From the NCBI GenBank assembly GCA_017524805.1, contig JAFXUX010000038.1, positions 1-64,000 on the forward strand: a stretch of 64,000 nucleotides of DNA. The letters run 5' to 3'. Numbering within the stretch: the stretch's first letter is position 1; every line of letters starts with the position of its first letter. Below, one piece after another: positions 8,812 through 60,378 of this stretch. The stretch comes from Candidatus Methanomethylophilaceae archaeon. Its GTDB lineage: Archaea > Thermoplasmatota > Thermoplasmata > Methanomassiliicoccales > Methanomethylophilaceae. The notes under the pieces are model-generated. The model searched no databases. It saw nothing but the letters and a program-made list of their open reading frames with translations, and had not been told where the DNA came from. A program made the translations under genes and the position numbers.

Positions 8812-8914
8812 GCCTCGGGCCGGAGCGGTCTGGAGGGGAGGTTCTGCCTCTCCATCCGTTGCCCCCCGGAATACGCTGGGATATACCGCAAAACCAGTGG
8901 ATTTGAACGGGGTG

Positions 8915-8924
8915 CATATAAAAT
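8915..8924 (+). promoter_or_regulatory. TATA box for paralogue 4
   Basis: CATATAAAAT lies about 17-22 bp upstream of the ATG at 8937, as expected for a leaderless or very short-leader archaeal transcript. Confidence 0.5.
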
Positions 8925-8936
8925 AGTAGATTCGGC

Positions 8937-26798: not shown

Positions 26799-28178
26799 AT
26801 GGCAGCCCGCAGATATGTTGACGTTTTTGAGTCGTACGATCGTTTCACAGAGGGAGACAAGGTGCAGGAATCGTATTGGGATTACGATATCGTCCACAGC
26901 ACCGCAGTCAAGATGAAGGATCGTTATGAACTGGATTTCGGCGCCAACATAGTCCCGGAAGACCCAGACATGGTGGACAATCTTTTCCTGGCCGGAGTCG
27001 ACATGCTGCTTGAGACCGGGATCTACAACATAGATCTGGGCCGCGTCATGCACATCGATGAGGATGAGCTGTACGAAGGCATCAAAATGGCCCCCAGAAA
27101 ACTCAGCATCGGCCATGGCAAAGACAAGTGCAAATGCAAAGCCCGCGTGGGAAATTCCAAGAAAAGGCCTATAATCCAGGGGGGTCCGACCGGAGCCCCT
27201 CTGTCCGAGGAGATATTCATGTCCGTGATAGAGTCCTATGCGGATGAGCCCATGGTGGATGCCATCGTCAGCGGGGTCCTCGAGACCGTGGACGGCCATC
27301 AGGTCCTCACCAACACGCCCTGGGAGATCAAGGCCACCATGGCCGAGGTCAGATATGTCCGCGAGGCAGTAGCCAACTCAGGAAGGCCTGGGATGGGCAT
27401 CTAGGGCCCGCAGACTCCGCTCTCGCCCGACGGCCGTCTCGCAGCCGGGCTGGGTTCCAACGGCATGAGGATATGCGATCCCCACGAGTGCTCACAGCTC
27501 AACGAGCTCAAGATAGACATGGGGGCATTGAACATAATCTCCGGATGGCATTCCGCCGGGGATATAATCCTGATCGAGCAGATGCCGATGTTCGGAGGGT
27601 ATGCAGGAGGCGTCGAGGAGACCGCCATATGCGACGTGGCGACCACTCTCGCCTCATTCGCGGCTTTCAACGCCGACATACATCTCGACGGCCCGATCCA
27701 CATCAGATGGGGCACCACGTCCACCAGAGAGACAATGCAGGTCGCCGCACATGCCGCCGCAGCTCTGGATTACAACACCGACCTCCTTCTCGCCAACCAA
27801 TACTATACGATGGCCGGGCCTTGCACAGAGATGTGTCTCCTTGAGGTTGCCGCCCAAGCGATAGCCGATACAGCATCCGGAAGGGAACTCCTGTCGGGGG
27901 TGGCATCCGCCAAAGGAGTCGCCATCGACAAGGCCACCGGTTTGGAGGCGAGGATGCTCGGGGAAGCCTCGGCGGCCACCTGCGGGATGGAGATTCCGGA
28001 GGTAAACAGCATCCTCGACAAGATAATCTCCAAATACGAGCTGAATTTCTCTTCCGCGCCTCAGGGTAAGACCTACAAAGAGTGTTACAACGTCAACGAT
28101 GCCACCCCGCTGCAGGAGTATCTGAGCATCTACGATTCCGTCTTGGACACTCTCGCCGATTGCGGGCTCAGTTTCTGA
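26799..28178 (+). CDS. mtmB: Monomethylamine methyltransferase, pyrrolysine-containing
   Basis: 459 residues when TAG at 27402-27404 is read as pyrrolysine. The TAG is codon 202, exactly the known Pyl202 of MtmB, and the family sequence continues in frame after it (GPQTPLSPDG, SGWHSAGDIILIEQMPMFGGYAGG, DGPIHIRWGTTSTRET). The enzyme is a TIM barrel that binds monomethylamine on pyrrolysine and transfers its methyl group to the Co(I) corrinoid of MtmC. It ends in TGA, overlapping the tail of the convergent HAD gene by 11 bp. The pyl genes needed to make and load pyrrolysine are not in the window. Confidence 0.95.
27402..27404 (+). other. Pyrrolysine (amber) codon of mtmB
   Basis: In-frame TAG at codon 202. 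The downstream 60 bp are G/C-rich and could fold (a GCCCG...CGGGC pairing around 27430-27455) like the proposed PYLIS element, but I could not fold it. Confidence 0.93.
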
Positions 28179-31115: not shown

Positions 31116-31415
31116 GTCAGGTGGTGGTAGTAGCCCCCCTTCTGTTTCAGACGGCATTCAACTACGCGTTCTACCCGCCGGTCGCGGGCCGTTCATCCCG
31201 GCTGTATGAACTTGCTCCGATGGGGAGTCGCCGTTTCACCAAATCTTCGGGAACGTCACCGCCTGGCGGATCATCCTATGCGCCGAATCTGTGTCGTTTC
31301 TGGGCCCTTGCCACGGCTCTCGCCGTACCGGCTTGCGCCGATCCATCTTGCCCTCGGAGGAGGGAACTTCCTCAGCTGGCTTGCGCCTACCGTCGGCCGT
31401 CCTCCATCTCCTGAC
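31116..31415 (-). ncRNA. rnpB: RNase P RNA
   Basis: Read on the minus strand, this region shows archaeal RNase P RNA hallmarks: GAGGAAGTTCCCTCC (conserved region I), CCAGAAACGACACAG, GGTGAAACGGCGACTCC, and near the 3' end GGGTAGAACGCGTAGTTGAATG followed by ACAGAAGGGGGGC. The 5' GTCAGG (31410-31415) pairs with the 3' CCTGAC (31116-31121) as stem P1, fixing the ends at about 300 nt. A TATA box (ATTTTAAAT, 31436-31444) lies about 25 bp upstream of the predicted 5' end. It is the catalytic RNA that matures tRNA 5' ends. Exact ends are approximate. Confidence 0.88.
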
Positions 31416-36447: not shown

Positions 36448-36529
36448 GACGGGAGAATCTAGGTCGTTCTATAAGAGAAGTTGCCGTTCCGCAGAAAAGT
36501 AGTCCACTATTTTTGGATTGGGAAGTATC

Positions 36530-36540
36530 AACTTTTATTA
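36530..36540 (+). promoter_or_regulatory. TATA box for the PP-loop/Sel1 operon
   Basis: CTTTTATTAC about 40 bp upstream of the chosen start at 36579. It predicts transcription from about 36560, after the alternative ATG at 36552. Confidence 0.45.
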
Positions 36541-36578
36541 CTCTTACAGATATGGCATTGCATCCGTGGGGAGCGAGA

Positions 36579-39071
36579 ATGAAATCTGTTCTGGGAGACA
36601 TAATCATCAGGGAGATCTGGAAGGAGGAGCGCGAGGGTGTCTCCGATCTCAAATGCAGGATAGATATATCGGACAGGGACGACGATGGCGTCGAAACCGT
36701 CGAGACGAAGGAGATCAGGTTCTCGGTCCCATCCGAGTATTCCGAATACCTTCTCACGGAGAGGTGCGACGCATATGTCGTATTGCTGCTGAGGTACGCC
36801 GTGAGCAACGGATACAACATCAGGTCCGACATCCCCATCTCGAACGACCTCTATTACAATCTAAAAGAGCAATTCCTTCCGCCCTTCGTCAAGAACGACG
36901 GATACGCGGCCGACCTGATCCTCGAGACGGCCAGCAGCGTCGGAGGGGGCGAAGCGGTAGGCACGGGCCTGTCATGCGGCGTGGATTCCCTGTACACTGT
37001 GATGAGGATGAAAGATTATCCTGATCCCGAATTCAGGCTGACCCACCTGTGCATCAACAACGTGGGAGCTTTCAACGGCCTGTACAGGATGGAAGGCATA
37101 GACAAGGTCCGCAAAGGCATGTACGCCAACGCCCGCGCGGCGGCGGAAGAGATCGGTCTTCCCCTGATCGAAACGGATTCCGATGTCGATGACGTCTTGC
37201 ACCAGAACCATTACCTCACCCACTCATACACATCCGCCTTCGCTATTTTCTGCCTCAAAAAGCTGTGGAAATACTATTTCTATGCATCATCGGGCGTTGA
37301 TTGCATCACTGGGTTCAGCATCAGGGGGCATCTCATGTTCCCGCCGTCCAAATACGAGCTTCTGACCATGGACTGCCTGTGCACCCCAGCCATGAGGATA
37401 TATATCGACGCGCCGACGGTGGCCAGATACGATAAGACAGTTGCATTGGCCGATTATCCCGTGGCGCAGAGGCATCTCGTGTCCTGCACGTCCTCGTACG
37501 TGAATTGCTCGCGCTGCGACAAATGCATGAGGAACATCATGGCCCTGGATTCGGTGGGCAAGCTGGAAGGTTTCTCGAACATATACGATCTGGATCTCTA
37601 TCGCAATTTCAAGTACAGGTACATGTGGTATCTATATTCGAGGAGAGACGACCACTATTTCGAGCCGGTCTTCGAGAATTTCAGGGCCAAGGGCGACGAG
37701 GAGTTCGTTCGCACCGGCCAGATCTACGAGTCGATGGAGGAGTTCGACAGCGCCTGGAAGAGCGGCAACAAGGAGTGGGTGGCCGAGTGCTTCGAAAGGA
37801 TCAAAGGCTACGCCGACGCCGGTGACATGCATGCTGCATCCCGCATAGGCAGGGCCTACAATTATGGCGTCGGCGCGGAGCAGAACCGCGAGGAAGCCCA
37901 GAAGTATTGGGCGATAACTATCGACGCTTTGAGGCAGGAGATCGCCGACGGATTCAACACGTCCAGGATCAAGCTTTTCGACATGCTGTGGGCGACCGGC
38001 GAGGAGAAGTACTATCCCGAGATGATAGAGCTTTTGCAGCCGCTTCTGGACGCGGAGGATATGTCCGCCATAGCCCGCAGAGGGCGCATGAGCAGGGACG
38101 GAAGAGGTTATCCCAAGGATACCGACGATGCCGTACAATGGTTCAGGTGGGCGTACAGGAAGGATCCTGTATGGCTCCAGGAGTATTGCGGCCTTCTCCT
38201 GAGCTCCGGGAAAGAGGAATATTACCAGGAAGCCAGAGAGGTATGCCTCGAGCGCTGCGACAAGAGCGCCAGATACGCGTATGGATTCCTGGGCCGCATT
38301 TATCGCGACGGGAAAGGAGTTCAGAAGGATCTCTGCGAGTCGGCCAAATGGTTCGAATTGGCCGTGATCAACAACGTGGAATGGGCTCCTATAGAGTATT
38401 TCGATGTCCTTTGGACGTTCAACGATCGCATGTAGGATCTGAAGCTCAGGGATTTGGTTCGCGCCATGGCAGAGGGCGGCTCCGTCGCGGCGATGGGCCG
38501 TCTGGGCAAGGTCTACCATTACGGCCGCGGTGTGCCCAAGGATCTCCATCTGGCCCGCAGGTGGCTAAGGCGCGCCCAGGAGAGGGATTTCGTCTGGTTC
38601 CCGGAGTATTACGAGACCCTTCTGGCTTCGGACGAGAAGTTCCATGATGAGGCCTGCAAGAGGTGCATAGCTCTCTCGGACAAGGGCGTGAAGCATGCTT
38701 ACGTCTATCGGGCGCGCATGTATCGCGACGGGTTCGGCTGCGAGAAGAATGCCGACGAAGCCATCGCATGGTACAGGAAAGGCGTCTCGGAGGGCATGGT
38801 CTTGGCCGCGATGGAGCTGTTCGAGATATTCTGGGCCAATCCGTCCCCAGCCACGGACAAAGAGATGATAGACGCCATACTTCCGTTCGCGAACCGCGGA
38901 AGCCCCGGCTGCATGGGCCGTCTCGGCCGCGCTTATCACTACGGAAGGGGCGTCCCGGTGAATCTTGCGATGGCCGAGAGGTGGACCGCCAAAGCCTGCG
39001 AGAAAGATCCTGCGAGATGGAGCAAGGGCCTCGAGACGATAAGGCTCAAGAGAAAATCGGAAAAGCGCTGA
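36579..39071 (+). CDS. QueC-like PP-loop domain fused to Sel1 repeats, interrupted by one in-frame TAG
   Basis: 830 residues if TAG at 38433-38435 (codon 619) is decoded. The start at 36579 follows GGGGAG by 5 bp; an ATG at 36552 is in frame but lies before the predicted transcription start. Residues ~128-145 (GLSCGVDSLYTVMRM) are a PP-loop nucleotide-binding motif; residues ~302-316 (CTSSYVNCSRCDKC) give the C-x7-C-x2-C-x2-C zinc site of QueC-type enzymes. From about residue 400 there are Sel1/TPR-like repeats (AYNYGVGAEQNREEAQKYW, IYRDGKGVQKD). The TAG falls inside a repeat: FDVLWTFNDRM-TAG-DLKLRDLV aligns with FDMLWATGEEKYYPEMIELL earlier in the protein. Repeats continue to TGA, only 9 bp before the next gene. 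Function unknown; possibly activates or amidates a small molecule. Confidence 0.75.
38433..38435 (+). other. In-frame TAG within a Sel1 repeat, candidate pyrrolysine codon
   Basis: The sequence after it (38436-39071) is one long open frame of Sel1 repeats (KVYHYGRGVPKD, MYRDGFGCEKN, AYHYGRGVPVN) in the same frame as the sequence before it. No Shine-Dalgarno site or ATG suggests a new start immediately after the TAG. Decay by point mutation is the alternative. Confidence 0.6.
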
Positions 39072-44700: not shown

Positions 44701-47641
44701 TGGAGCAGAACGATTTTACTTTCTCCGCCGACGAGCGGATGGCGCTGTTCGGAGGCAGCCATCCCGCTTCGGTCGCTTCAGAAGCCAGATCTGAGAGCTC
44801 GCCGGAATCCTTCAGCATTTTTGCCGCTTCGTCCTGGCGGACGTCCCTGGGATCCCAAGCTGCGAAGGCGTCGAATATGGAGTCCGAGAGCGAGACGATC
44901 TTCGGAACGACATCAGGTATGCGGGCTATGTTGGGATCCGAAGCGATCTTGGCGTCGGCGGACATGACTGTCGACACGATCCTTCCGGTCCGGTCCGTAT
45001 CTCCGTCTATCCCGGCCGCGGCTATCTTCGGCCCGACGGCATCCAGCGCGTCCGCCGCGGCCAAAGCCTCGTCCATCGCCTCTTCGATGTCGTATTGCAG
45101 GGAGGCGGCAGGCACGTCCGCGTGGATCGTCGCAAGGGCGTCCGTGTCGCACATGCTGGTGGCGATGCCGTAGGCCTGGCATGCCTTTATGATGTCGTCC
45201 TCCAGGTTCCCTACCGTCTCCGGTTTCATCCTCAGCGCGGTGTCGGTGGATATCCTGAGGTCTTTGGCTCCGGCGACGTTATGGGCCTCATAAAGAGAGA
45301 TGCATTCGTACGCGCTGAATCCCCACGCCTGCTTCCTGTGAAGGTCGGAGACGTAGGCATCCAGCTTCTCTTTGGTGGCGCTGAGCTTGGCGATGGTCTC
45401 CTCCAGCTTGGAGTCGTCGAATTCCTTGCACGGCTCCATCGCTTTCCTCAGCTGCTCCAGGACCTTAGTCTTCTCCGTCTTATCGGAATGGAGCTCCAGG
45501 CAATGGTTCCCGATGCCGATGCCATCCAGCCTTTTCTCGACGACGTCCAGCGCCGCTCTTTTCTCGGCCACGAACAGGACCGTCTTCCCGCGGTAGATCG
45601 AATCCGTGATTATGTTGGTGATCGTCTGCGATTTCCCGGTTCCCGGCGGGCCGTGCATGATGAAGGTCTTCCCTTCGCTGGCGGCTCTCACCGCTTTGAT
45701 CTGGGAGGAGTCTGCGGGGACGGTGAGGCATAGGCCGTACGGGTCCGCGTCCGCTTCCAATTCCGGGTCGGCGTGGTATATCCCGCCCGACACCATGGCC
45801 TCCACGACGGGGTTCTCCTTGAGCTTGCCCATGTTCTTCTCCAGGTCTTTCCACATGGCATACTGGCTGAACGAGAACACGCCCAGCGCGGCGCCGTCGA
45901 GGACTTCCCATCCCTCCAATCCTTCTATGCATCTGCGGACGTTCTGGGTGATCCTGTCGACGTTCAGGCCGCCGTCGTCCAAAGGAAGCGGATCTATCCC
46001 GGGGATGTTTATGTCGTATTCCTGGCGAAGCTTCTCGGCCAATGTGACGTTGAAAACGGTCTCCTCATCGTAAGGCACGACCACGTATCCCTTCTGCTTC
46101 TTGATGAGCTCGGCCGGGATGAGGATGAGAGGAGAGTAGCGGGGTATCCTGTCGGCTTTGCTCTCGAACCATCTGAGCACGCCTATGGCTATGAAGAGTG
46201 AGTTGCATCCGCTCTCTTCCATCTCTTTCTTGTACAGACGGTAGATGGATTTGAGCGAGGATATTGTGTCGGCCTCGCCGAGCGGGGTTCTTATCCAACC
46301 TCTGGACAGCTCATCCCCGAACGAGCCCGCATAGTTTCCGACGTAGGTCTCGGTCTCGAACGGCCTTTCCGAGTAGATCCCGGCGCCGTCCCAATCCTGG
46401 GGCTTCGGCATCAGGATGAACTGCGTCCCTTTGGAGAACGTCTCCCCGAACTTCGAGGTGTCCCCGACGAGCAGAGGGACCGCTTTGGCGCCGACTTTCA
46501 TGCTCACCAGCGGGTTCCTGGTGGTGATGTCGAGGAGGTCGCGCTTCCAGATGTCCACGCGGGTCAGCGCTCTGTCCTCGGCCGCCTCGTAAACTTCGCC
46601 GACCTCTTTGGGGGCGACGGATTGGGTATCGAATTCGTCCTTCTCGACGGTCCAGGCCCCATTCTCATATCTGCGGGTCGGGAGGGGTCTGATCGTCGGG
46701 CGGGATTTCTTTATGTCCACGGCGCAGATGAACGATTCAGTGTCCTCCAGGCGCATCAGGGCGGCTTCCGAGGCCACGTCGAAAGCGGCCGCGTGTCCAT
46801 CGCAGAGATATGTGCACTCGACAGCTCTGGCGTCGCGGTTGCGTATCAGACGCGTGATGGCTGAGCTGTCGATGGATGTTATGTCGGCCATGTGGTCGTC
46901 CACGAGCCAGAAACCTGCGAACGCATGGCCTTTGACCAGGAAGATGAACGTGTTGAGGCCGATGGATTCCAAAGCGGAGCAGTAGAGCGCCGATACGTCG
47001 ATGCATGTGCCTTCCCTGTCGGATACTACGGTATCTGCCAGGCGCACCCTTTGGCCTGATTCCTCGAAACCTGCCGGCGGCACGATGTATTTGATTCTGA
47101 GCTTCTGGATGGCGTCGTATACTGCGGCAGCCATCTCGGCTACCCTGTTCCTGTCGCCGCGATAGCCTTCGAGGGATGGGTCTTTGCCCCAGCTTCTGAG
47201 CGTCTCAGAGGCTGAATCGCGGATTTTAGCAAGGCAGGAAGCGTTGGGAGTGACGAAGGACGCTATGAGCTCCGGACTGTCCGGACCGGGCCAGTATTCG
47301 AACGGGAGGATCTCGGTGTCGCAGGACTCGGATTTGATGCTTCCGTCTTCGCCTTCCGCTAGCAAGGTGACGCGGCAGGGCATCGTCTCGGCGGCTTCCA
47401 GCAGGCGGGCGGGATCCAACGACACGTTGAAGTGCTCTCTGAGATCCAGAATCGTGCCGGCGGCGATCCCGTCGGCTTTGAACGAGATTTCCTTGATGAA
47501 AGGCGGATCCGATCTGAGCGTGAAGGTGATATTCTTCTCGTCTTCTTCGGCCTCCGCCGTCGCCGTAAGGACGGGGTTCATCCCATTCCTGTAGAGCACG
47601 TACCCTATCTTGCTGATTTCCAACTCGAGTTTCAGTTTCAT
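41711..47641 (-). CDS. Giant DUF4011-type superfamily I helicase with Vsr-like nuclease and DUF3320 (probable anti-phage protein)
   Basis: 1976 residues from the ATG at 47641 (MKLKLELEISKIGY), which overlaps the PLD gene stop by 4 bp. Order: N-terminal beta region; transglutaminase-like fold (~205-245: EGTCIDVSALYCSALE, KGHAFAGFW, with Cys, His and Asp); DUF4011-like region (~390-600, RVDIWKRDLLDITTRNPL); SF1 helicase with Walker A GPPGTGKSQT (~665), DESSQ (~1333), QGDERDIILFS and VAVSRAR; Vsr/DUF559-like endonuclease (~1640-1710: GSSGFRVDLAVVDP, GWNIMHVWSVDW); an acidic linker; a DUF3320-like region (~1815-1870) and a wHTH-like tail. This order resembles the candidate defence protein described as DUF4011-helicase-Vsr-DUF3320 (Hhe). 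Foreign-DNA destruction is inferred. Confidence 0.82.
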   Translation of the reverse strand: MKLKLELEISKIGYVLYRNGMNPVLTATAEAEEDEKNITFTLRSDPPFIKEISFKADGIAAGTILDLREHFNVSLDPARLLEAAETMPCRVTLLAEGEDGSIKSESCDTEILPFEYWPGPDSPELIASFVTPNASCLAKIRDSASETLRSWGKDPSLEGYRGDRNRVAEMAAAVYDAIQKLRIKYIVPPAGFEESGQRVRLADTVVSDREGTCIDVSALYCSALESIGLNTFIFLVKGHAFAGFWLVDDHMADITSIDSSAITRLIRNRDARAVECTYLCDGHAAAFDVASEAALMRLEDTESFICAVDIKKSRPTIRPLPTRRYENGAWTVEKDEFDTQSVAPKEVGEVYEAAEDRALTRVDIWKRDLLDITTRNPLVSMKVGAKAVPLLVGDTSKFGETFSKGTQFILMPKPQDWDGAGIYSERPFETETYVGNYAGSFGDELSRGWIRTPLGEADTISSLKSIYRLYKKEMEESGCNSLFIAIGVLRWFESKADRIPRYSPLILIPAELIKKQKGYVVVPYDEETVFNVTLAEKLRQEYDINIPGIDPLPLDDGGLNVDRITQNVRRCIEGLEGWEVLDGAALGVFSFSQYAMWKDLEKNMGKLKENPVVEAMVSGGIYHADPELEADADPYGLCLTVPADSSQIKAVRAASEGKTFIMHGPPGTGKSQTITNIITDSIYRGKTVLFVAEKRAALDVVEKRLDGIGIGNHCLELHSDKTEKTKVLEQLRKAMEPCKEFDDSKLEETIAKLSATKEKLDAYVSDLHRKQAWGFSAYECISLYEAHNVAGAKDLRISTDTALRMKPETVGNLEDDIIKACQAYGIATSMCDTDALATIHADVPAASLQYDIEEAMDEALAAADALDAVGPKIAAAGIDGDTDRTGRIVSTVMSADAKIASDPNIARIPDVVPKIVSLSDSIFDAFAAWDPRDVRQDEAAKMLKDSGELSDLASEATEAGWLPPNSAIRSSAEKVKSFCSKLIAIGPDMNRIETQWRPEVYDFDSRYNIKKGWHEADGKMLFKSAAKKKFMSDVSNVLRPGVAFESLGTTADLISAVNQDFRSLSSIPGKVASASAGIASEKASLSDMLVRANETISAAEAVGISADKLHELRMALEGPNGGAEDYQSAVERWEAARDKLISVMKTDADISLPEKCRAYCESIRPHLAGVFDWANWNYYASKLEEEGLGASCDAIRSGMDSNAVVNSTYRSLYKTMINLCRQESESLRMFNASTFEGTVERLRKLDSEYAEINKSLLKYRLYKNVPRNIDSSIPDSEAGKVYRAVSAGRMKKSIRTLLGEIPHMLPRLCPCLLMSPQSVSQYLTMDYPKFDIVIFDESSQITTSKAIGTLGRGKAAVIAGDRQQLPPTRFFQKQMETEESEEEIEDMESFLEDCLALNMPQTYLEWHYRSRHESLITFSNRVFYDGKMLTFPSPNDQETKVGMRFVREGRYHKGRRCNPIEAAAVVDEVYRRVMSKGYKGESIGIIAFSISQQNCIEDAMDDMTSKHPRFQQRLGKMSEGMFIKNLETVQGDERDIILFSIGYGPSREGTVVQNFGPINRPGGGRRLNVAVSRARCEMVVFSSMRYTDVKLTPASSSGVRSMREFLKFAENNGRFGDQDHAKPAEDMSAIMEDIAESLSEIGYESHFGIGSSGFRVDLAVVDPENPQEYILGILGDGDSYKKSENTRDREFARSDVLVRLGWNIMHVWSVDWFFNKKLTLKKIENRIEDILANRAVAAEEDGEELIPDDVPAEEEPQKDATEDTPADGPQVAPDESAEEEMPVDDAEPDEEEPRRRTYVPLNLQFEDVPVDVATSDRDLIRDIAGKIIAMESPVNEELLLSLYRKGTGIKRLVGNKKEALIRNLRSEFSPDIRDDFVTYWAEGADRKMRTYRAAESTADSRDIDCIPLIELMNACLDVVEASVSIPRLSCASAAGKALGFKRPGANVISTIEKAIDLAVEDGLILEEGGNLMPTEE

Positions 47642-48414
47642 CTGCCCATCCTCTTTTTGCTCAGCGCCAACTCCATCTTGGCGCGGTCGCCTTCCGAAAC
47701 CGTTTGAAGCGAAGGCGATTCCCATAGTTTATCGTATGCATCCCGCAGCTCGCGGAAAATGTCCGGCAAGTCGCTCTCCATTATGCGGATGCCCCATTCC
47801 TCCGCTGTCGTGAGGGCGCTTTTGGAGATGTTCGCCGAGCCTACGTATGCCTCCCCATTGCCGTTCGGAGAGGTGAAAATGAAGCTTTTCGCGTGTATGT
47901 GGTCCTCTGCGGTGGCATCGAACTCGAATTTCACTTCCGTATTGGGGAGCGAAGCCAATTCGATGACGGCTTCCGCCTCTGTGGAACCCATGAATGAAGT
48001 CGTTATGGTGCGTATTTTCGTTCCTTCTTCGGCTCTTTCCCGGAGCCAATCGATCATCAGGTTCAGCCCGGACATCTTGATGAAAGACACCACTATGTCG
48101 ATGCCATCCGCATGGGAGGCCGATTCTTCCAGAGCGTCGATCAATGCGAATCCGCATCCCGGGGTCACCGCAGAGCTGTGGGATGGGATCTCCGCGAAAT
48201 CGCGCTCGCTCTTCCTGATGCCAGCTCTTTTCCAGTTCTTTTTCGTTTTTGTAAATATTATAATCTTAGTTTTGTTCACGTTTTTCTTGCCCAGGAATTC
48301 TTCGGGCATGCATATCCCGCAAACTTTACCACTATCGCAGGTGTACTCTCCCTCACGTTTTTCACATATTATGCAGGGGTTCTTCACGCGGGGATACATG
48401 AGGGCGCATGCCAT
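47638..48414 (-). CDS. Phospholipase-D-type nuclease with N-terminal zinc finger
   Basis: 258 residues. Cysteines at about 14, 17, 26, 32 and 35 (CIICEKREGEYTCDSGKVCGIC) suggest a zinc-binding finger. The rest is a single PLD domain with the catalytic pattern H-x-K in DHIHAKSFIF (~172-180) followed by GSANISKSAL, as in bacterial PLD nucleases that act as dimers. Directly upstream of, and overlapping by 4 bp, the giant helicase gene, so the two make one operon and probably one defence system in which PLD cuts nucleic acid. Alternative start at the sixth codon (MYPRVKNPC). Confidence 0.8.
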   Translation of the reverse strand: MACALMYPRVKNPCIICEKREGEYTCDSGKVCGICMPEEFLGKKNVNKTKIIIFTKTKKNWKRAGIRKSERDFAEIPSHSSAVTPGCGFALIDALEESASHADGIDIVVSFIKMSGLNLMIDWLRERAEEGTKIRTITTSFMGSTEAEAVIELASLPNTEVKFEFDATAEDHIHAKSFIFTSPNGNGEAYVGSANISKSALTTAEEWGIRIMESDLPDIFRELRDAYDKLWESPSLQTVSEGDRAKMELALSKKRMGR

Positions 48415-49810: not shown

Positions 49811-51523
49811 TCAATCGCCAGATTCTTCCAGTTCCCTCAGGAATCTTTTTATTTCCTCCAGATCAGCATCATTCCAATCCGAATGTTTGCGGTTCAGAAG
49901 GGCCGGCGGGAATCTCATTATGTCTCCGTAGAGCGCTTCCATGATTTTCTCGCCGTTGTTGGGGCCGCTCAGAACGAGGTCCTCGAATTGAATATCTTTT
50001 ACCGGGAAGAAATCCGATCTGTCGAATAGTTTCCGCCTCGGGCGGGGGACGGGGTTGTCAAAGGTCAGAGCCACCGCATCTCCCTCGGAGCCTCCCATGT
50101 CTTTCGTGAAATTCTTTTTGGCCTCTTCATAGGTGCCAATTATTCTGGGGTCCTTTACCGGGCTGACCTTATTGGCCAGATCTTCTTTCGCCAGCGCGTC
50201 GATCTTCGCGCGCAATCCGGCTATGTAGTTTCTGTACTCTTCCCATCCTTCGTCATCCGAGGATCTCACGCCGTCGAAGATCATCACGTCTATATGCAGC
50301 ACTCTGGGGCTCACGTCTCTCATCCGGATCTGATGGCCGTAATTGATTCCGTTTCCCATCGAGCTGAGATATACGAATTCTTTCGTTTTCATTTCAGGGT
50401 CGTCTTCCAGCGCTTTTGCGAGTCTGTCGTAATCCTCGCGCATCATGTAGATGTCGACGTCGTCGTCCCACGGTATGAATCCTCCGTGGCGGGCGGACCC
50501 CAGCAGAGTCCCGCATGCGATCATGTAGTTTACGCCGAACTTCCTGCATTTGCCGTCCAGCTTTTTGAGCATCGCTCTGAGCCCTTCCTGGATGGTGGAG
50601 ATTCTGGAGTCGTCGATCTTTATCGACCTGAAGATTTCGCTTACGTTGTCTTTGGAAATCAGGCCCGCTTCAATGGCGGCATCAAGGGCTCCGTTGAGGG
50701 TGTCAGAGGCGTTTCTGCTGCTCAGAAGGCCGGACGTCCCGCATTCCATCATGGCGTCGATGACGGTCTGGAAGTCCTTTGCCATCTGTTTTTCCGGGCT
50801 CTCCGAATTCTTCAAGAAATCAGCGTATGACGCAGGCACTCTGAGGTTCGTTTCCATCAGGGCCAAGAACATGCGGTCGGCGGAGCGCTCACCTAAATAT
50901 TTGGCCGCTGCGATGTCGTCTTGGTCGAGCCGGCTTTTTTCCGCGGACTCCAGGGCGCCGTTCCCTTGGCGCATCAGCTCCAAAGCAAGCCATGGGAGCT
51001 CTTTTTTCCAGTTGGGCGGTAGCTCCCCGATGCGGCTCAGGATTTCTGCGGCCTTTTCCGGGTCTTTTTCGGTTCCGTTTCCGTGGATATGGGCGGACAT
51101 CAGGCGCAGCTGGGCGCATAACGAATCGGGATCCCGGGATTCCAGCAGGTATCTGCATGCCAGATTCCGGCAGACCGGATCGCCCGAAGAGGATGCGATA
51201 TCATAGAGCATGCAAGCCGCCGTCATGGATCCCAGATCCGCGGCGGATTTCATCCACGATATGGCTGCGATCTCGCTTCTTTCCGTTCCGATACCGTTGT
51301 TGTACGCTTTGGCCATGCGTATGATCGATTGGATGTCACCGGATTCCGCGAAAGGCTCTACCACGCGTAACGCTTCTTCTCTGCTTTCCGGATCATCGGA
51401 TGCGCGGAGGGCGTCGAAGAGTTCGGCAGCCGCTTCTGCAGAGCCGGCGAGTGCGTCGCGGCGCAGAATGTCCAGAGTCCCATGCATTTGGGCTGTATTC
51501 TGATCCTCAGCGTCTCCATCCAT
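49811..51523 (-). CDS. Sel1 repeats fused to LicD-family phosphotransferase (copy A)
   Basis: 570 residues, start supported by GGAGG with a 7-bp spacer. Residues ~55-160 are Sel1 repeats (AKAYNNGIGTERSEIA, SAHIHGNGTEKDPEKA). From about residue 310 it is a LicD-type nucleotidyltransferase-fold protein: GTLLGSARHGGFIPWDDDVDIYM (338-360) carries the catalytic DDD triad. LicD enzymes of bacteria transfer phosphocholine from CDP-choline to surface glycans; relatives transfer other phospho-groups. The LicC-like gene at 55517 fits such a pathway. Downstream of copy B on the same strand, separated by a hairpin. Confidence 0.85.
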   Translation of the reverse strand: MDGDAEDQNTAQMHGTLDILRRDALAGSAEAAAELFDALRASDDPESREEALRVVEPFAESGDIQSIIRMAKAYNNGIGTERSEIAAISWMKSAADLGSMTAACMLYDIASSSGDPVCRNLACRYLLESRDPDSLCAQLRLMSAHIHGNGTEKDPEKAAEILSRIGELPPNWKKELPWLALELMRQGNGALESAEKSRLDQDDIAAAKYLGERSADRMFLALMETNLRVPASYADFLKNSESPEKQMAKDFQTVIDAMMECGTSGLLSSRNASDTLNGALDAAIEAGLISKDNVSEIFRSIKIDDSRISTIQEGLRAMLKKLDGKCRKFGVNYMIACGTLLGSARHGGFIPWDDDVDIYMMREDYDRLAKALEDDPEMKTKEFVYLSSMGNGINYGHQIRMRDVSPRVLHIDVMIFDGVRSSDDEGWEEYRNYIAGLRAKIDALAKEDLANKVSPVKDPRIIGTYEEAKKNFTKDMGGSEGDAVALTFDNPVPRPRRKLFDRSDFFPVKDIQFEDLVLSGPNNGEKIMEALYGDIMRFPPALLNRKHSDWNDADLEEIKRFLRELEESGD

Positions 51524-51678: not shown

Positions 51679-53880
51679 TCATATTTTCGGGGTTCTCTTT
51701 GCAAGGAACGCTTTGATCCTTTTCAGATTGTAGTCTTTGCCTTTGACATGGTTGCGCATCATGTCTCCGGGGAACCTCATGGGAGACCCGTAAAGATTCG
51801 TCAGGACTTTCATCGGGTCGCGGGGCCCGGGGAGCATAATGTCCTCGAATTTCATGTATACCGGCGGGAACACTTCGTCGTATCTGAATATCTTCTTTTT
51901 GTGGGATACTCTGGGGTTGTCCATGGTCATCGCTACGGCGGTCCCGCCTTCTCCGCGCATATCTGATTCGAAAGATTCCCTGTAGCTCGCGTAGAGGTCT
52001 TTGATCCTCGTGTCTTCCAAGGGGTTGAGGCCTTTCTCTTTGTCTTCTTCGTTGAGGTCATCGATCATTTCTCTGAAGCTGTGGGCGTAATCGGAATATC
52101 TCTGCAATCCGGCTGGGTCGGCGGACTCGACGTAATCCAGCACCATGACGTCCAGGAACATGTTCGCGCCCTTCATCCTCATGTGGATGTGGTTGAACCA
52201 TTGGGTGGTATCGGCCTTGCTCTCATACAATCTGCTGTGTATCCTGAACGGAGAGTTTTCGTCCAGCACAGTCTTGAGCTTCTCAAAATCCTCGCGCATC
52301 ATGTAGTAGTCGATGTCGTCATCCCACGGGACGAATCCCCCGTGGCGATAGGCGCCCAGAAGCGTTCCGCAGGCGATCACATATTGGATTCCGTTGGCCT
52401 TGCAGATGTCGTCGAACGACTTCAACATCAGTTTGAGGACTTTATGGATGTTCTCCAGGTCGCTTTTGTTGATCCTCAGGGCTGAGAAAATGCTCTTAAG
52501 ATCATCCTCGGCAATCGCTCCAGCTTCCAAGGACGCTTCCAGCATCCTGTTCATCGTCCCGGATGCGTTTCTCGGGGTCAGAAGGTATTCATCTTCGAAT
52601 TCCACTAGTATGTCCAGGATGGTCTGGCAATCCTCGGCGATGAAGCTCTTGGGATCCTCGACGTTCTTTATCAGTTTTCCGTATGACGAATCGAGGCGGA
52701 GATTGTTCTCAATCAAAGCGGCTAAGACGTGTTCCTTATGGGATTCGACCAGTCTGGGCGCCCATGCCGGCATGTTCTCGGAGAAGTTAAGCTTCTTGAT
52801 GGACGAAATCATGTCGCCCTCTTGGTACGACATATACAGCGCCATTTCCATCAGATCTGACAGATAAGTCTCCCTGTCCAGCCCGGCAGTCAGGCTTACG
52901 GCGGCTTCTCTAATTTCAGGGTCGCTGCTGAGACAGCAAAGCTTGCCCAAACACACCCTTTCGTCTGGTTCCTCGACAGGGTCGTCGCTTTCTACCGCGC
53001 GTTTGGCCATGGCCTCTGCGGCTTCGGCATCTTTTTCCATGCCTATGCCCTAGTAATATGCTTTGGCGATGCGGATCATGGCGGATACGTTGCCAGATTC
53101 CGCGAAGTATTTAAGTGAAGGTATTATCGCTGCAGCTCCCTTGGGATTGGGCGCGCTGCCGACGGCAAGGTCAAACATGCGTACCGTATGCTTGCATGCT
53201 TCGTTGCGGGCAGATTTGAAATCGGAATTCAGATCCTGGATTTCTTTCAGATTCGCTTTGGCCCATGGAACGTCCTCTTTGTACGACAATATCGCCCATT
53301 TCTCGGCTTCGCTCAGATCCTTTTTGTAGCATTTGCCTCTGTAATACATCTTTCCGATGCGGGCCATAGCCCTAGGATTGCCGTTCGCGGCGGATTCCTC
53401 GGCTATTCTCATCATCTCGGAATTGTCATCGGAATCTCCCAGCCTCCAATAGATATCGACCAGAGTGTTGCTGACGAAAAAGTTGCTCAGGATGTCCGAA
53501 TCGTGCATCCAATCTGCCATCACGCGAAGCGCTTCTTTGCTGGCGCCACGGCTTTCAACCAATTTTCTTACGGCTTTCAAGCTGTCCGTGTTCTTTTCCT
53601 CTATTTTGGAGCAGACAATCGGAACGATGCGTTCGGCCATCTCTTTGTCGATAGTCGCAGGCAAGTTTTGCATAAGCATGCATGCCGCATCGAAGCCCTC
53701 TTCCGGGTGTTCGGATATGAGTTCGCACACCTTCTACTCCTTGAGATCGAATCTGGTGTAATATGAGTATTTCAGCTCGTCGGCCAGTTGGGAGAAATCA
53801 CCTGATTCGGCGGTTAAGATGGCTTTTTTCAATCCATCGCAGCTTCTGTTCGAAGCGTCTTTTCTTATGATGTCAGTCAT
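51679..53880 (-). CDS. Sel1 repeats fused to LicD-family phosphotransferase (copy B), interrupted by two in-frame TAG codons
   Basis: 733 residues from ATG at 53880 to TGA at 51679 if TAGs at 53734-53736 (codon 49) and 53050-53052 (codon 277) are decoded. The three pieces share one frame. Around the second TAG, IAKAYY-TAG-GIGMEKDAEAA matches copy A's MAKAYNNGIGTERSEIAA residue for residue, so it lies inside a Sel1 loop. The first lies in a helical N-terminal region (TRFDLKE-TAG-KVCELISEH). The C-terminal LicD domain is intact: GTLLGAYRHGGFVPWDDDIDYYM (505-527). It should transfer a phospho-group to a surface glycan. A TATA box (ATTATAA near 53943) precedes it. Either amber codons are read as pyrrolysine or the gene is decaying only through TAGs. 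Confidence 0.75.
53050..53052 (-). other. In-frame TAG within a Sel1 repeat of copy B, candidate pyrrolysine codon
   Basis: Codon 277. The flanking residues align without gap to the intact paralogue, where the same position is asparagine (AYNNGIG versus AYY-TAG-GIG). Confidence 0.62.
53734..53736 (-). other. In-frame TAG near the N-terminus of copy B, candidate pyrrolysine codon
   Basis: Codon 49. Upstream, 48 in-frame codons lead back to an ATG at 53880 with a TATA box farther upstream. A GTG six bases after the TAG could serve as an alternative start, so this site is weaker evidence than the one at 53050. Confidence 0.5.
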
Positions 53881-54240: not shown

Positions 54241-55512
54241 ATGGAATGCCTTCTTATCCTAGGTGGGAACTCCGCTACAGCTGGCCTTGTGACGATGGCC
54301 AAGTCTATGGGTGTCAGAACGGTGGTCGTGGACAAAAATCCTCACGCTTACGCCAAAAAGTTCGCTGACGTGCCATACGACATCGACGGCACCGATATAG
54401 ATAGCATAGTGAGGATAGCCAAGAAGGAAAAGGCGGACGGCATCATGTTGGGCGCTGTCGAGGAACTCATGGACACTTATCAGAAGGTGTGCGATGCCCT
54501 TGGGATGAGATGCTATGCGACGAAGGAGCTCTTAGATCTGTTCTCGGACAAGAGCGCATTCAAGAATGCATGCGTCGCAAACGGTGTGCCTACGACCGAA
54601 GGCGGGCTTTATGGCATCGCCGACGTCGATTCTTTCAGGTCCAAGAAATTCCCGCTGATCGTGAAGCCGGTCGACAGCAGCGGATCCCGCGGCATCAGGG
54701 TATGCTACAAGTTCGAGGAGCTCCGTTCCGCGGTCGAATCAGCCCTGTCATTTTCCGAGCTCGACAAAGTCCTCATAGAGAGGTACATGACCGGGCAGGA
54801 GGTCGTGGTCTATTACGCGTTCCAGGACGGGGAGCCAACGCTGCTGGGAATCTGCGATCGCTACACTAACCATGAGCGTGCCTCCAGCGCGCAGCTTCCG
54901 ACCTCATATGTGTTCCCATCCAGATTTACGAAAGGGTACATGGCATCCGAAGACTCGGCGGTAAGAGAGATGTTCCGCAAGATCGGAGTCAAGAACGGGG
55001 TCATGTTCCTTCAGGGATTCGCAGATGACGACGGGACGCTCAGGTTCTACGAGTCTGGATATAGGCTGAACGGCGCACAGGAGCACCACATCTTCGCCAA
55101 TCTCTGCGGCATAGACGCGAAGAGGATGATGGTCGACTTTGCTCTGCACGGCAGGATGGCCGATTTCAGCATTTCGGAGAAGGCCGACCCTCTTCTCGGC
55201 GGCCGCTTCGGATGCAAGCTGTCCGTCCTCATGGAGCCGGGAACGATCGCCAAAGTCGTCGGATTGGAGGAGGTATCGAAGATGGAGGGCGTGGTATGCG
55301 TCAATCCCAGCTATGATATCGGGGAGACGGTGAAGGATGCCGGCACGCTCAAGCAGATAGTATGCAGGTTCTTCATAGTGGCCGATACGATATCAGATCT
55401 GAAGGTCCGCATAGACAAGATTTATGATGCGTATGACGTTATCGATGGGAACGGCGCGTCTTTGTTGATGGAGCAGTTTGACACGAGACTTCTATTGGAG
55501 AATTACAGGTGA
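54241..55512 (+). CDS. ATP-grasp carboxylate ligase (carbamoyl-phosphate-synthase-like)
   Basis: 423 residues. N-terminal Rossmann-like pre-ATP-grasp domain (LLILGGNSATAGLVTMAKSMG), then the ATP-grasp with FPLIVKPVDSSGSRGI, VLIERYMTGQEVVVYY, and the Mg-binding end FYESGYRLNGAQEHH. These enzymes make an acyl phosphate and join it to an amine, thiol or alcohol. Four bases separate its stop from the LicC-like gene, so they form an operon. It may build or attach the group that the LicC/LicD proteins handle; the substrate is unknown. Confidence 0.82.
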   Translation: MECLLILGGNSATAGLVTMAKSMGVRTVVVDKNPHAYAKKFADVPYDIDGTDIDSIVRIAKKEKADGIMLGAVEELMDTYQKVCDALGMRCYATKELLDLFSDKSAFKNACVANGVPTTEGGLYGIADVDSFRSKKFPLIVKPVDSSGSRGIRVCYKFEELRSAVESALSFSELDKVLIERYMTGQEVVVYYAFQDGEPTLLGICDRYTNHERASSAQLPTSYVFPSRFTKGYMASEDSAVREMFRKIGVKNGVMFLQGFADDDGTLRFYESGYRLNGAQEHHIFANLCGIDAKRMMVDFALHGRMADFSISEKADPLLGGRFGCKLSVLMEPGTIAKVVGLEEVSKMEGVVCVNPSYDIGETVKDAGTLKQIVCRFFIVADTISDLKVRIDKIYDAYDVIDGNGASLLMEQFDTRLLLENYR

Positions 55513-55516
55513 TCTC

Positions 55517-56263
55517 ATGAGAGCTATTCTTTTGGCCGCTGGAAAAGGAACCAGGATGTACAGGCATTTCAAATGCCCCAAAAGCACGCTGAAGGTCGAT
55601 GGCGTGCCGATAATAAGGCATTCAGTCGAGATATTGCTCAGCAAAGGGATCGATGTCACGGTCGTGCTGGGATACGACTGCGAGACTATCCGCTCTTCCC
55701 TAAAGGGCTGCAAAGTGGACTACAGCTACAACCCGTTCTACTCTAAGACGAACAGTTTGGGCTCCCTATGGACGGCCAGGAAATATCTGAAGCCCGGGGA
55801 GGACGTGATAATCTCCAATGCCGACGTCTATTGGGAGGAACCGCTCCTGGAAAGGCTGCTGGAGGCTCCCGGCAAGATAGTGATGGTTGCCGACAGCGCG
55901 AGGTACGAGGTGGGAGATTACTTCTTCTACGTGGAGGACGGCATGATCTCCAAGTTCGGCAAGGAGCTGAAGCTCGAAGAGAGGAACTACGAGTACGTCG
56001 GATTGGCCAAGATTTCGGGCGACCGTGTGGAGGCGTTCTCGAAGAGGCTGGACACCATGGTGAAAGAGGAGAAGTACGACCTGTGGTGGGAGAACGTCCT
56101 CTACAACTATCTGTCCGAAGATCCCGTCAGAGTCGTGGATGTGCCGGACCTGTTTTGGGCGGAGGTGGACTACGTCCAAGACTATGATCGCATTAAGGAG
56201 TATATCAGAACGAAGGACGTCTCCTGCAAGCTGGACAAAAGGTTCATGCCGATCGTAGAATGA
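55517..56263 (+). CDS. LicC-like sugar-phosphate/phosphocholine nucleotidyltransferase
   Basis: 248 residues from the ATG at 55517, preceded by AGGTGAT. NTP-transferase fold: LLAAGKGTRMYRHFKCPKSTLKVDGVP (residues ~4-31), VVLGYDCETI, NSLGSLWTARKYL, and the metal-binding IISNADVYWEE. The pattern resembles LicC CTP:phosphocholine cytidylyltransferase more than sugar-nucleotide enzymes, for example TNSLGSLW. With LicD-family genes on both sides, activation of a phospho-alcohol with CTP is likely, though choline itself is not proven. Confidence 0.8.
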   Translation: MRAILLAAGKGTRMYRHFKCPKSTLKVDGVPIIRHSVEILLSKGIDVTVVLGYDCETIRSSLKGCKVDYSYNPFYSKTNSLGSLWTARKYLKPGEDVIISNADVYWEEPLLERLLEAPGKIVMVADSARYEVGDYFFYVEDGMISKFGKELKLEERNYEYVGLAKISGDRVEAFSKRLDTMVKEEKYDLWWENVLYNYLSEDPVRVVDVPDLFWAEVDYVQDYDRIKEYIRTKDVSCKLDKRFMPIVE

Positions 56264-56491: not shown

Positions 56492-57817
56492 TTGAGGTAT
56501 CTGGGGTATGGTTATGTCGAAGGGGTCGATCAGAATGGCGAAACTGCGATCCTTCCTTCCAATGATTTGGACAAAGCGTCCTGTGAAACCATAATTCAGC
56601 AGCTGCAGCCCAAAAGTGACATGCTGCTGAATTTCTACTCTGAATTGGACGTGATTAAGCTGGGGCTCAGAGAAGAGTACATTCTGGCCATCGACGAAGG
56701 GATCAAAAAACATGGCGTCAACGAGACCATCGACATAATTCTGAACAATTATTCCGACAAAAACAATAATTTCCTGAGGATACTGAAAAGAACCGATCAG
56801 TGCCATCTTCTCACTCTGATGATCGACGCGGAATTGGGTTCGAAACTCTGCTATGATGACAGTTCGGTCGGCGGAAAAGTCAGCGGCAAAACCTATTCGC
56901 GCGACATCAGTATGCTGTCGTTCCTCTGCCAGCAGGAGAAAGATTGTTTCATAGCGAAAAAGATGATCGTCAAAGCCATAGACTGGCTGATCGATAAAGG
57001 GCTGAAAGACAGCGCCTTCGGGAAAGAGGAGGTCAGAGGTTTCATCGGGAGTTTCAGGCAATACGACGACTACTCCATCGTAATGCGCAAGACCATTCTG
57101 TTCATGCTGAAGGAAGTGGACAGAATCTGCTCTGCTAATGAAATCGATTATTCCATTGCGTCAGATACCCTTCTGGGCTATGCCGTTTTCAAAGGCCTGA
57201 TGCCTTCCACCAACAGCGCTCAGATCATGATGACCCGCCAGGATTACGACATATTAAAGAAGGCGCTGGCAGGCAACAAGACGCTGAAGATAGTGGAATA
57301 TGCTTACAAAAAAGTGATGAGAACCCGCATCACAGTGAAAGGGATTTCGAGCAGCTGGGCGTACATATCGGTGATCAAATTGGATGTAGTCAAAGACGGC
57401 GACCGCCGCGGGCAATACGATTCGATCAAAAGCGATCTGAAGAAAAGCCTGGCGAAGATAGACCTGGGCGATGTCGACGTCAACAATCCGAAGGTGTCAG
57501 CCCTCTACAGGGATGCCTTCAAAAAAATATCCAACCTGATCGGTTCGGATAAGGCGGATCAGAGCTGCGGCCTCGTGAACGGCATCGAAACCGCGAAAAT
57601 AAACGAGATCGACTGCAGATTGGAAGATTATCTGCCCACGAAATCTATTCAATTCGATTCGCTCACTCTGAAAGCCGCGAACCATCCCTCATCTTTCAAC
57701 GGAAAATTCGAGGAACCTCCGCTGAAATTGTCGCCATATCTCGGCAGCAAGAGGGCAAAGGCCGATCTGGATGTGATCGAGACTGTTATCAACAAAGAAT
57801 TGGCGGGAGGGAAGTGA
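56492..57817 (+). CDS. Degenerate LicD-family protein lacking the catalytic aspartates
   Basis: 441 residues, with a TTG start at 56492; no ATG is available upstream before an in-frame TGA, so the start is uncertain. N-terminal ~190 residues are helical and unassigned. The LicD region starts near residue 200 (ILFMLKEVDRICSANEIDYSIASDTLLGYA), but where family members have GGFIPWDDDxD this one has KGLMPSTNSAQIMM, so all active-site aspartates are gone. The C-terminal part (RLEDYLPTKSIQFDSLTL) still aligns with the next gene (PIEDYLPTKRLKFEDMTL). It may be a non-catalytic partner of that protein, whose start overlaps or adjoins its stop. Confidence 0.75.
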   Translation: MRYLGYGYVEGVDQNGETAILPSNDLDKASCETIIQQLQPKSDMLLNFYSELDVIKLGLREEYILAIDEGIKKHGVNETIDIILNNYSDKNNNFLRILKRTDQCHLLTLMIDAELGSKLCYDDSSVGGKVSGKTYSRDISMLSFLCQQEKDCFIAKKMIVKAIDWLIDKGLKDSAFGKEEVRGFIGSFRQYDDYSIVMRKTILFMLKEVDRICSANEIDYSIASDTLLGYAVFKGLMPSTNSAQIMMTRQDYDILKKALAGNKTLKIVEYAYKKVMRTRITVKGISSSWAYISVIKLDVVKDGDRRGQYDSIKSDLKKSLAKIDLGDVDVNNPKVSALYRDAFKKISNLIGSDKADQSCGLVNGIETAKINEIDCRLEDYLPTKSIQFDSLTLKAANHPSSFNGKFEEPPLKLSPYLGSKRAKADLDVIETVINKELAGGK

Positions 57818-57822
57818 TCGCT

Positions 57823-60378
57823 ATGAAGGACAAAATAGTCTTGAGCAAATCCAGGGTCGATTCCTTATCCAAGATCGATGTTGAAGAGGAAAGCTGGATC
57901 AAGCAGTATTCTGAGCGTCCGTGGGATGGAAAAGAGCCGATAACAACGGGCAAGTACTTCATCGAATACGAGGGAATCCCGTTCCACTTCGCATTTTACA
58001 AGTCAAAAACTGACGACAAGCATCTGATGGTGTCCCTGACCGGAGGGAATTACGGTTCGACCCGCACCGAGGGCATGTATACGAGATGGAAATATGCGGC
58101 ACGCACGGATTATTCCATACTTTGCATCGATGACCCGATGGTGTGGATGTACAAGGTCAGGTTCGGATGGTTCGGCGGCGCGAACAAAAAAGGCAAGCCG
58201 ATTTGGACCATCACTTCTGAATTGATCAAGAAGATAATGGCCGCAAGCTATTCGAAGCAGCCCGAGGTAATTTTCTACTCTTCTTCTTCTGGTGGGACTG
58301 CAGCCATTCTGATATCGTCAGTGATAGGGTTCCCATGCTCCGTGGTCGCGATCAACCCGCAGCTGTATCTGCCGTTCAATCCTATGTACAAAAAAACGAC
58401 GGGCGCCGGCATCCTCCATGAAGAGTTGGTAAAACAGAAAACCGTAGTCGGAATCATCAAGAATCACAAGGAAAATCATTACATCATTCTGGAGAATCTG
58501 GCCTCGTACAATGATTACGTCAGGCATCACATGCATCTTTGCGGAGAGCTGGGAATAAAACCGGCATACGGCATAACCCGCTCATCCGACAATCTGATCA
58601 GCTGGGTTTATTATGCGGCCTCCAATCAAACTCATAGGGCGCAGGATTTCGCTTCGCTCTATCCGGCTTTGGAATACTTGACAGCCAATTTCGATCGTTT
58701 CAAGGAGATCCCGTGGAACCTGTTGGATCTTTTCAACGGATACCTCCAGGACCATCACGTCCAACTCAGGGATGCCAAACTTATCGAATCAAATCTGAAA
58801 CCGCCATTGGAAGATGCCGTCGAATATGCCAAATCCGGGGATTTCACATTTCTGGAAAAGATAATCGACGATTGCTCGGAAGATGAGATCAGAGACAACG
58901 AGATATTCAAGCTGATTCTGAAGTTTCCCAGCAGATCCGTTGTCTGCCTGTGCCATCTCTTCGGCAAGACCCATGACAAGGCTTTCTTGGACAAGGCCGC
59001 CCACCGCATCGTCAGAGCTCTTATAGAGGATCCCAAGACCTTTACGAATCAGATGCAACCCATACTGATGGGCTCGAATCTGACGGAAGAAGCGGCATGC
59101 TCTTTGGTCGAAGCGGCATCGTCGCGCATCGATGATGTCTTAGAGAGTATGAGGTCGTCCGAACAGATCAAAGAGATCGCATGCGCGGTTATGCTTCAGT
59201 ATCTGTCGTCGGGAAAGCCGATGGATGTCATCATCGATCAGATGAAGTCCGACGGCCCGAGATCCGTCCTTTTGCTCCTGAGAGCGGTCAATAAAGAGTA
59301 TCTTCTTACGCTGGCTCTCGAAACCGTCATGAAGAGCGGCATGCATTATAAATGCAAAAAGAGGGATTACGACTCAAGGAAGGAGTCGCTGCTGTCCGAC
59401 TGCTCGATATTGATATCTATCCTCGAGCTGGGCGAAGAAAGATTGGTATTCAATTCGGCGGCGGTATCCCATATGCTCAACTGCATTGTCGAAAGTGGGC
59501 AGAAAAACAATGTCATCGGTGAGCAGGATATATTGGGCATCTTCAAGTCTATAAAATGCAGCGATTCGACGACCGTGGTCATCCACAGGGCGCTGGCGAT
59601 GATTCTGAGGGAAGTCGACAGGATATGCACGTCAAAAGGAGTCAATTACACTCTGGCGTGCGGCTCTCTGATCGGCGCCTATCGCCACGAGGGATTCATC
59701 CCATGGGATGACGACGCCGATCTGTACATGACCCATGACGATTTCAAAGTCTTTAGGGAGGCGGCGAAGAAGAGCGAAGTCATCGATCTCATCGAATTCA
59801 CGTACCACAGCAATTACTCCACCAGACTGAAGCTCCGCAATGTCCCGACCCGCTGGCTGTTCATCGACATCTTCACTTTCGATTACGTATCGGATCTGGA
59901 GAACGCTTGGGAGCTGCGCTGCGAGATGAAGAAGCAGATGAACAAGGAGATGAAAAAGTACCTCGTCGGAAACAGATTCTCCAACAAAGAGGTCAATATC
60001 CCCGGCGTCAAGAGCCTGTATAATCGCTATATCCCGATGTCCATGTCGCGTTTGGACCCCAATAACGAAAGGAAAGGGATCGTGCTGGGAATAGACAACG
60101 CTACGAGGCACAAGCACATCTACCCGATAGAAGACTATCTGCCGACAAAGCGCCTGAAATTCGAGGATATGACCTTGGCAGTCGCCAACAATTACCAGAA
60201 GATTCTGGAGGTTAATTACTCGAACGCCCTGAGCTTCCCTGAGGATATGATGACGGCCAAGCACAGGCGCACGGATCTGGATCTCACGGACATCCTGATC
60301 AGGGTCTGTAAAGACGATTCCGCCCGCAGGTCTGAGGCTCAATCAGAATCGGATGGAGGGGACTCCAAGCAGAGCTGA
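57823..60378 (+). CDS. Alpha/beta-hydrolase-like domain fused to LicD-family phosphotransferase
   Basis: 851 residues from ATG 57823; a GTG at 57814 overlapping the previous stop is also possible (GGAGG at 57806-57810). Residues ~40-270 look like an alpha/beta hydrolase with a nucleophile-elbow-like FYSSSSGGTAAIL and a preceding strand, similar to accessory secretory or glycan esterases. Residues ~300-560 are helical repeats. The LicD domain near residues 600-820 has GSLIGAYRHEGFIPWDDDADLYM with the catalytic aspartates from residue ~629. The fusion suggests both adding a phospho-group and processing an ester on the same glycan. Ends in TGA. Confidence 0.78.
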   Translation: MKDKIVLSKSRVDSLSKIDVEEESWIKQYSERPWDGKEPITTGKYFIEYEGIPFHFAFYKSKTDDKHLMVSLTGGNYGSTRTEGMYTRWKYAARTDYSILCIDDPMVWMYKVRFGWFGGANKKGKPIWTITSELIKKIMAASYSKQPEVIFYSSSSGGTAAILISSVIGFPCSVVAINPQLYLPFNPMYKKTTGAGILHEELVKQKTVVGIIKNHKENHYIILENLASYNDYVRHHMHLCGELGIKPAYGITRSSDNLISWVYYAASNQTHRAQDFASLYPALEYLTANFDRFKEIPWNLLDLFNGYLQDHHVQLRDAKLIESNLKPPLEDAVEYAKSGDFTFLEKIIDDCSEDEIRDNEIFKLILKFPSRSVVCLCHLFGKTHDKAFLDKAAHRIVRALIEDPKTFTNQMQPILMGSNLTEEAACSLVEAASSRIDDVLESMRSSEQIKEIACAVMLQYLSSGKPMDVIIDQMKSDGPRSVLLLLRAVNKEYLLTLALETVMKSGMHYKCKKRDYDSRKESLLSDCSILISILELGEERLVFNSAAVSHMLNCIVESGQKNNVIGEQDILGIFKSIKCSDSTTVVIHRALAMILREVDRICTSKGVNYTLACGSLIGAYRHEGFIPWDDDADLYMTHDDFKVFREAAKKSEVIDLIEFTYHSNYSTRLKLRNVPTRWLFIDIFTFDYVSDLENAWELRCEMKKQMNKEMKKYLVGNRFSNKEVNIPGVKSLYNRYIPMSMSRLDPNNERKGIVLGIDNATRHKHIYPIEDYLPTKRLKFEDMTLAVANNYQKILEVNYSNALSFPEDMMTAKHRRTDLDLTDILIRVCKDDSARRSEAQSESDGGDSKQS

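Follow-up and report, generated by a model that had tools for sequence, protein, structure and literature searches.

A Sel1-repeat/LicD gene with two in-frame TAG codons in an archaeon that decodes TAG as pyrrolysine

Can a gene whose frame is broken twice by TAG still make its protein in an archaeon that inserts pyrrolysine at this codon? The question is raised by a minus-strand frame in the window – by which we mean the whole 64,000-nucleotide stretch of DNA analysed – that runs from an ATG at 53880 to a TGA at 51681-51679 and, read through both TAGs, gives a 733-residue Sel1-repeat/LicD protein (Table 1). The first-pass annotation had proposed that this protein contains one or two pyrrolysines, or at least that the gene tolerates read-through. 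We now consider it highly likely that the gene is functional and read through TAG2 (codon 277), and probably through TAG1 (codon 49), into a protein carrying pyrrolysine; we infer both the identity of the residue and the expression of the gene. Pyrrolysine, or at least sense read-through, thus remains the best reading, with support that comes mainly from outside the LicD gene.

Table 1. Positions of the features of the window that are discussed in the text
Feature	Position	Strand	Remarks
mtmB	26799..28178	+	Positive control; pyrrolysine TAG at 27402-27404
Second Sel1 gene	36513..39071	+	In-frame TAG at 38433-38435; aligns through the TAG with intact neighbour 39081-41708
Intact Sel1/LicD paralogue	49811..51523	-	570 aa; 74% identical to syntenic gene of G026
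Sel1-repeat/LicD gene	51679..53880	-	733 codons reading through two TAGs; TGA end; coding signal in all three segments
LicD nucleotidyltransferase-type domain	51787..52404	-	Complete, with PWDDDID motif (Pfam and motif)
TAG2, codon 277	53050..53052	-	Sel1 helix end; position variable among homologues
Sel1 repeat	53281..53376	-	Pfam match
Alternative start	53728..53743	-	AAGGAG, 6 nt (TAGAAG), GTG at 53730 (sequence)
TAG1, codon 49	53734..53736	-	Spanned by predicted helix 48-57; GTG 53730 is an alternative start
ATP-grasp ligase	54241..55512	+	Island member
MobA-like nucleotidyltransferase	55478..56263	+	Island member; LicC-like role inferred
LicD-family gene	56492..57817	+	
LicD-family gene	57814..60378	+	

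Re-reading the frame gave the same picture as before, since it contains no internal TGA, TAA or frameshift and TAG is its sole interruption. The LicD domain is indeed complete, as had been claimed: in a Pfam search, the read-through product matches the full PF04991 profile at residues 493-698 (E 1.7e-31), with the conserved DDD motif and the other invariant LicD motif residues kept, and it also matches Sel1 (PF08238, E 1.3e-7). Coding continues on either side of the in-frame TAGs, as in pyrrolysine genes. With 358 long ORFs from the same genome as the training set of a 3-periodic Markov model, segments 1, 2 and 3 score 0.17, 0.20 and 0.25 log-odds per codon (the gene median being 0.21); of the remaining five frames, two average about -0.3, one -0.48 and two just below zero. 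A search for PYLIS-like RNA structure 3′ of the two TAGs revealed no specific signal (z of -1.8 and -0.8, compared with +1.2 for mtmB), and a scan for bacterial-type promoters 5′ of the gene found none above chance.

Pyrrolysine at residue 277 is well supported. TAG2 sits inside a homologous stretch with alignable residues, through which homologues are open, and the alignment with the intact paralogue pointed out in the first-pass annotation is real, at least locally (IRIAKAYY-TAG-GIGMEKD versus IRMAKAYNNGIGTERS). The aligned residue is N or Q if TAG2 is matched to the homologues' first Sel1 repeat, H, N or E for the second and D or E in others, which makes the pyrrolysine there look tolerated rather than catalytic. 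An AlphaFold model built with five sequences (mean pLDDT 69.5, moderate) has a helical repeat region that is largely continuous from residue 1, with residue 277 at a helix end and residue 49 within a helix, and the predicted superhelix runs on past both TAG sites. Could translation instead stop at TAG2 and re-initiate three codons further on, at the ATG at 53040, giving a separate LicD enzyme of 453 aa and a Sel1 protein? The LicD domain does lie entirely 3′ of TAG2, but the break would cut through a Sel1 repeat, a Shine-Dalgarno-like start is first seen 33 codons downstream, homologues are single chains and several other TAG genes of this genome have no start codon near behind the TAG. Such a split is therefore most improbable.

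The reading of TAG1 is less certain than that of TAG2, and pyrrolysine (a sense reading) at residue 49 is moderately supported. With a start at GTG 53730, which follows TAG1 and has an AAGGAG 6 nt upstream, the gene would hold TAG2 only and specify a 683-aa protein with one pyrrolysine, a sub-case of read-through rather than a competitor to it. Segment 1 is only 48 codons long, and a score as good is reached by 17% of the open 48-codon windows that lie outside called genes; furthermore, a search with the N-terminal segment produced weak matches only (best E 0.005), with no reliable homologue covering TAG1. The shorter protein is nevertheless somewhat unlikely, because the frame-specific coding signal begins at about ATG 53880 and drops further upstream, an AT-rich stretch lies 30-60 nt 5′ of this ATG and the predicted helices run on across residues 2-57. 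In other words, the proposal of one or two pyrrolysines stands for TAG2 and, more cautiously, for TAG1, and we retain the longer protein with both.

That the host decodes TAG as pyrrolysine, as the first-pass annotation had assumed, is borne out by mtmB, with its TAG in the window, and by a complete pyl cassette in the genome. All the components expected of a pyrrolysine-decoding organism are present, namely (i) tRNA-Pyl(CUA), with the anticodon CTA in the DNA, (ii) pylS and (iii) pylB/C/D-like ORFs lying in a row 3′ of pylS (8047-11077 of locus L073), which were assigned by sequence and order. The TAG-bearing methyltransferase genes are two mtmB, mtbB and mttB.

Further evidence comes from how TAG is used elsewhere in the genome, in a sample of 750 kb. 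Among its 523 confident ORFs, the stop is TGA in 437, TAA in 63 and TAG in 23, and coding continues in frame beyond the stop for 15 of the 23 TAGs versus 53 of the 500 TGA/TAA codons (p = 2.5e-9), which leaves TAG almost no use as a true stop. The first 15 codons after the TAG score positive in all 15 cases, with a median of 2.9 versus about 0 for 50 TGA/TAA pairs, where the next gene's own ATG is often only a few codons on. None of the five pairs that looked most suspicious has a domain spanning the stop, and all five are separate genes. A few TAGs in the sample precede a short non-coding extension and may still terminate. Besides four methylamine methyltransferases, the 15 continuing genes include those for CobT, a PHP phosphatase, a dipeptidase and several Sel1 proteins, although the share of the latter is biased upward since the stretches sampled were partly picked around Sel1 matches.

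In these genes, family matches run straight across the TAG, as in CobT (TIGR00303, residues 25-345, TAG at 228), the PHP phosphatase (NF004981, residues 36-245, TAG at 138), the dipeptidase of the beta-Ala-His family (residues 5-458, TAG at 362) and an IS630 transposase. The PHP gene (L078 5228-5974, i.e. C38:69228-69974) carries its TAG at one and the same position in six species (G000, G026, G018, G001, G006 and G027, in our genome numbering), with Ala or Met in others, and the CobT gene (L092 9698-10807, on C40) shares its TAG in four (G000, G026, G002 and G006), with Glu in others. Downstream of the TAG, dN/dS is 0.08-0.18 for PHP among five of the six species (synonymous difference around 0.5) and 0.077 for CobT in the pair G000-G002, figures that leave out G027 and G010 (PHP) and G026 and G014 (CobT). 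Shared TAGs and low downstream dN/dS together indicate that the sequence past these TAGs is translated and selected, and it follows that this clade uses TAG as a functioning sense codon, which almost certainly stands for pyrrolysine. CobT, the PHP phosphatase and the like are also likely to be genes that the cell needs. The PHP TAG, which follows HGETxxEPV, is one codon kept in six species despite roughly half of the synonymous sites differing. It is conceivable, although unlikely, that function constrains some TAGs beyond methylamine metabolism, with the PHP pyrrolysine being selected in an enzyme of a housekeeping type and the LicD and Sel1 TAGs representing a drifting background of the same code.

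Other Sel1 proteins have their TAGs at different repeat positions than TAG2, and the second Sel1 gene of the window has an intact orthologue in G002, with Tyr (TAC) at the TAG site. A further gene of 1033 codons (L076 14363-17461, on C33), in which a TAG at codon 176 is flanked on both sides by a strong coding signal, has no NCBIfam match. Since the assembly is a draft in 47 contigs, one or both TAGs of the LicD gene might be put down to an assembly or sequencing error, but this is barely credible in a genome with many independent TAG genes, two of which have TAGs shared by the assemblies of other species.

Is the LicD gene, then, a young pseudogene, in which TAG terminates often enough for the LicD product to be lost and the two TAGs are there by accident? 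The first-pass annotation had argued that a decaying gene would also gather TGA, TAA and frameshifts. Their absence is real, but judging from the codons of the gene, a nonsense mutation would create TAG with a probability of about 0.39, and two TAGs would arise by chance with a probability of about 0.15, which makes the argument weak when taken alone. The gene also lies in a variable island, where loss is common, and it is absent in G018, G001 and G026. It had further been suggested to align orthologues from close relatives and compute dN/dS downstream of the TAGs. A search that covered 60 relatives, as well as each of the 31 genomes of the genus, returned only homologues about 28-40% identical, none of them with the TAGs, and a scan of the genome contigs for an orthologue found nothing. 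These homologues are too distant for dN/dS; codon-position distances to them rank third > first > second, a pattern that speaks for past selection only. On the other side, TAG is a sense codon elsewhere in the same genome and hence does not disable a gene, the 733 codons are free of other lesions and the coding signal is undiminished past the TAGs, which in our view makes a pseudogene improbable and leaves a functional, read-through gene as the preferred reading.

The island stretches from 48538, at a conserved aspartate-semialdehyde-dehydrogenase-like gene, to a conserved block from 60417, and harbours LicD, ATP-grasp and nucleotidyltransferase genes in a content that varies between close species. 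It is missing in G018 and G001, holds a single LicD gene together with ATP-grasp and nucleotidyltransferase genes in G026 and has two tandem LicD genes with the same companions in G027. Elsewhere in the window, a DUF4011/helicase/REase_MTES_1575 protein of 2004 aa (41711-48414, minus strand) adjoins a PLD-family nuclease-like gene, in a synteny kept across several relatives, and the two are a possible defence pair. The archaeal RNase P RNA (Rfam RF00373) is at 31119-31412 on the minus strand.

How might such a gene work? PylB/C/D would make pyrrolysine, which PylS would load onto tRNA-Pyl(CUA), and the charged tRNA would beat termination genome-wide, turning TAG into a rare but ordinary sense codon. 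A point mutation to TAG at a tolerant site would then be no worse than a missense mutation and could hence persist. In the resulting protein, the Sel1 superhelix would serve as the scaffold of the LicD enzyme, and pyrrolysine 277, lying where a helix ends at a variable and probably exposed position, would have no catalytic part. The protein would probably decorate a surface glycan with a phosphocholine-like head group, and its association with a LicC-like nucleotidyltransferase suggests that this group may be activated first and then transferred. LicD enzymes modify surface glycans, yet need not themselves be located at the surface, and the label of cell-surface phosphotransferase initially given to this protein therefore goes too far. 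Nor is the gene special, as had been implied, since TAG acts like any other sense codon in this genome.

These findings have implications for annotation, which in its standard form splits such genes and would label CobT, the PHP phosphatase, the dipeptidase and several Sel1 proteins as truncated or as pseudogenes. Reading TAG as a sense codon restores these genes in the genus, and the likely pyrrolysine proteins gain a glycan-modifying enzyme of the LicD type, while TAG columns compared across species offer a route to telling selected pyrrolysines from those that are merely tolerated.

How does this gene compare with known systems? With the methylamine methyltransferases MtmB, MtbB and MttB, all present in this genome, it shares an in-frame TAG and the machinery that decodes it, but pyrrolysine is catalytic and conserved in these enzymes, whereas the TAG site in the LicD gene is variable. 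With LicD phosphocholine transferases (PF04991), it shares the full profile match and the PWDDDID motif, and differs from them in its fusion to Sel1 repeats and in the TAGs that interrupt it. In the archaeal Pyl code, which Kivenson and colleagues are said to have described in Science in 2025, all TAG codons are sense, reportedly with proteomic proof in some archaea, and the genome-wide reading of TAG as pyrrolysine is common to that code and to the present case. Another parallel is Ca. Methanomethylophilus alvus, which also has a pyl cassette, a very low use of TAG as a stop (1.6%), linked to predicted pyrrolysine proteins, and 16 genes predicted to contain amber codons in addition to the methyltransferases, among them those for a Sel-1 domain protein and for glycosyltransferases (Borrel et al., 2014; PMC4153887). 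Judging from its gene content, the present genome would fall in the same order. The table of amber genes for that species has neither a LicD gene nor a gene with two TAGs, and what is added here is the conservation of TAGs across species and the downstream dN/dS. The phenomenon was thus already predicted in close relatives, and the LicD gene is a new example of it rather than a new kind.
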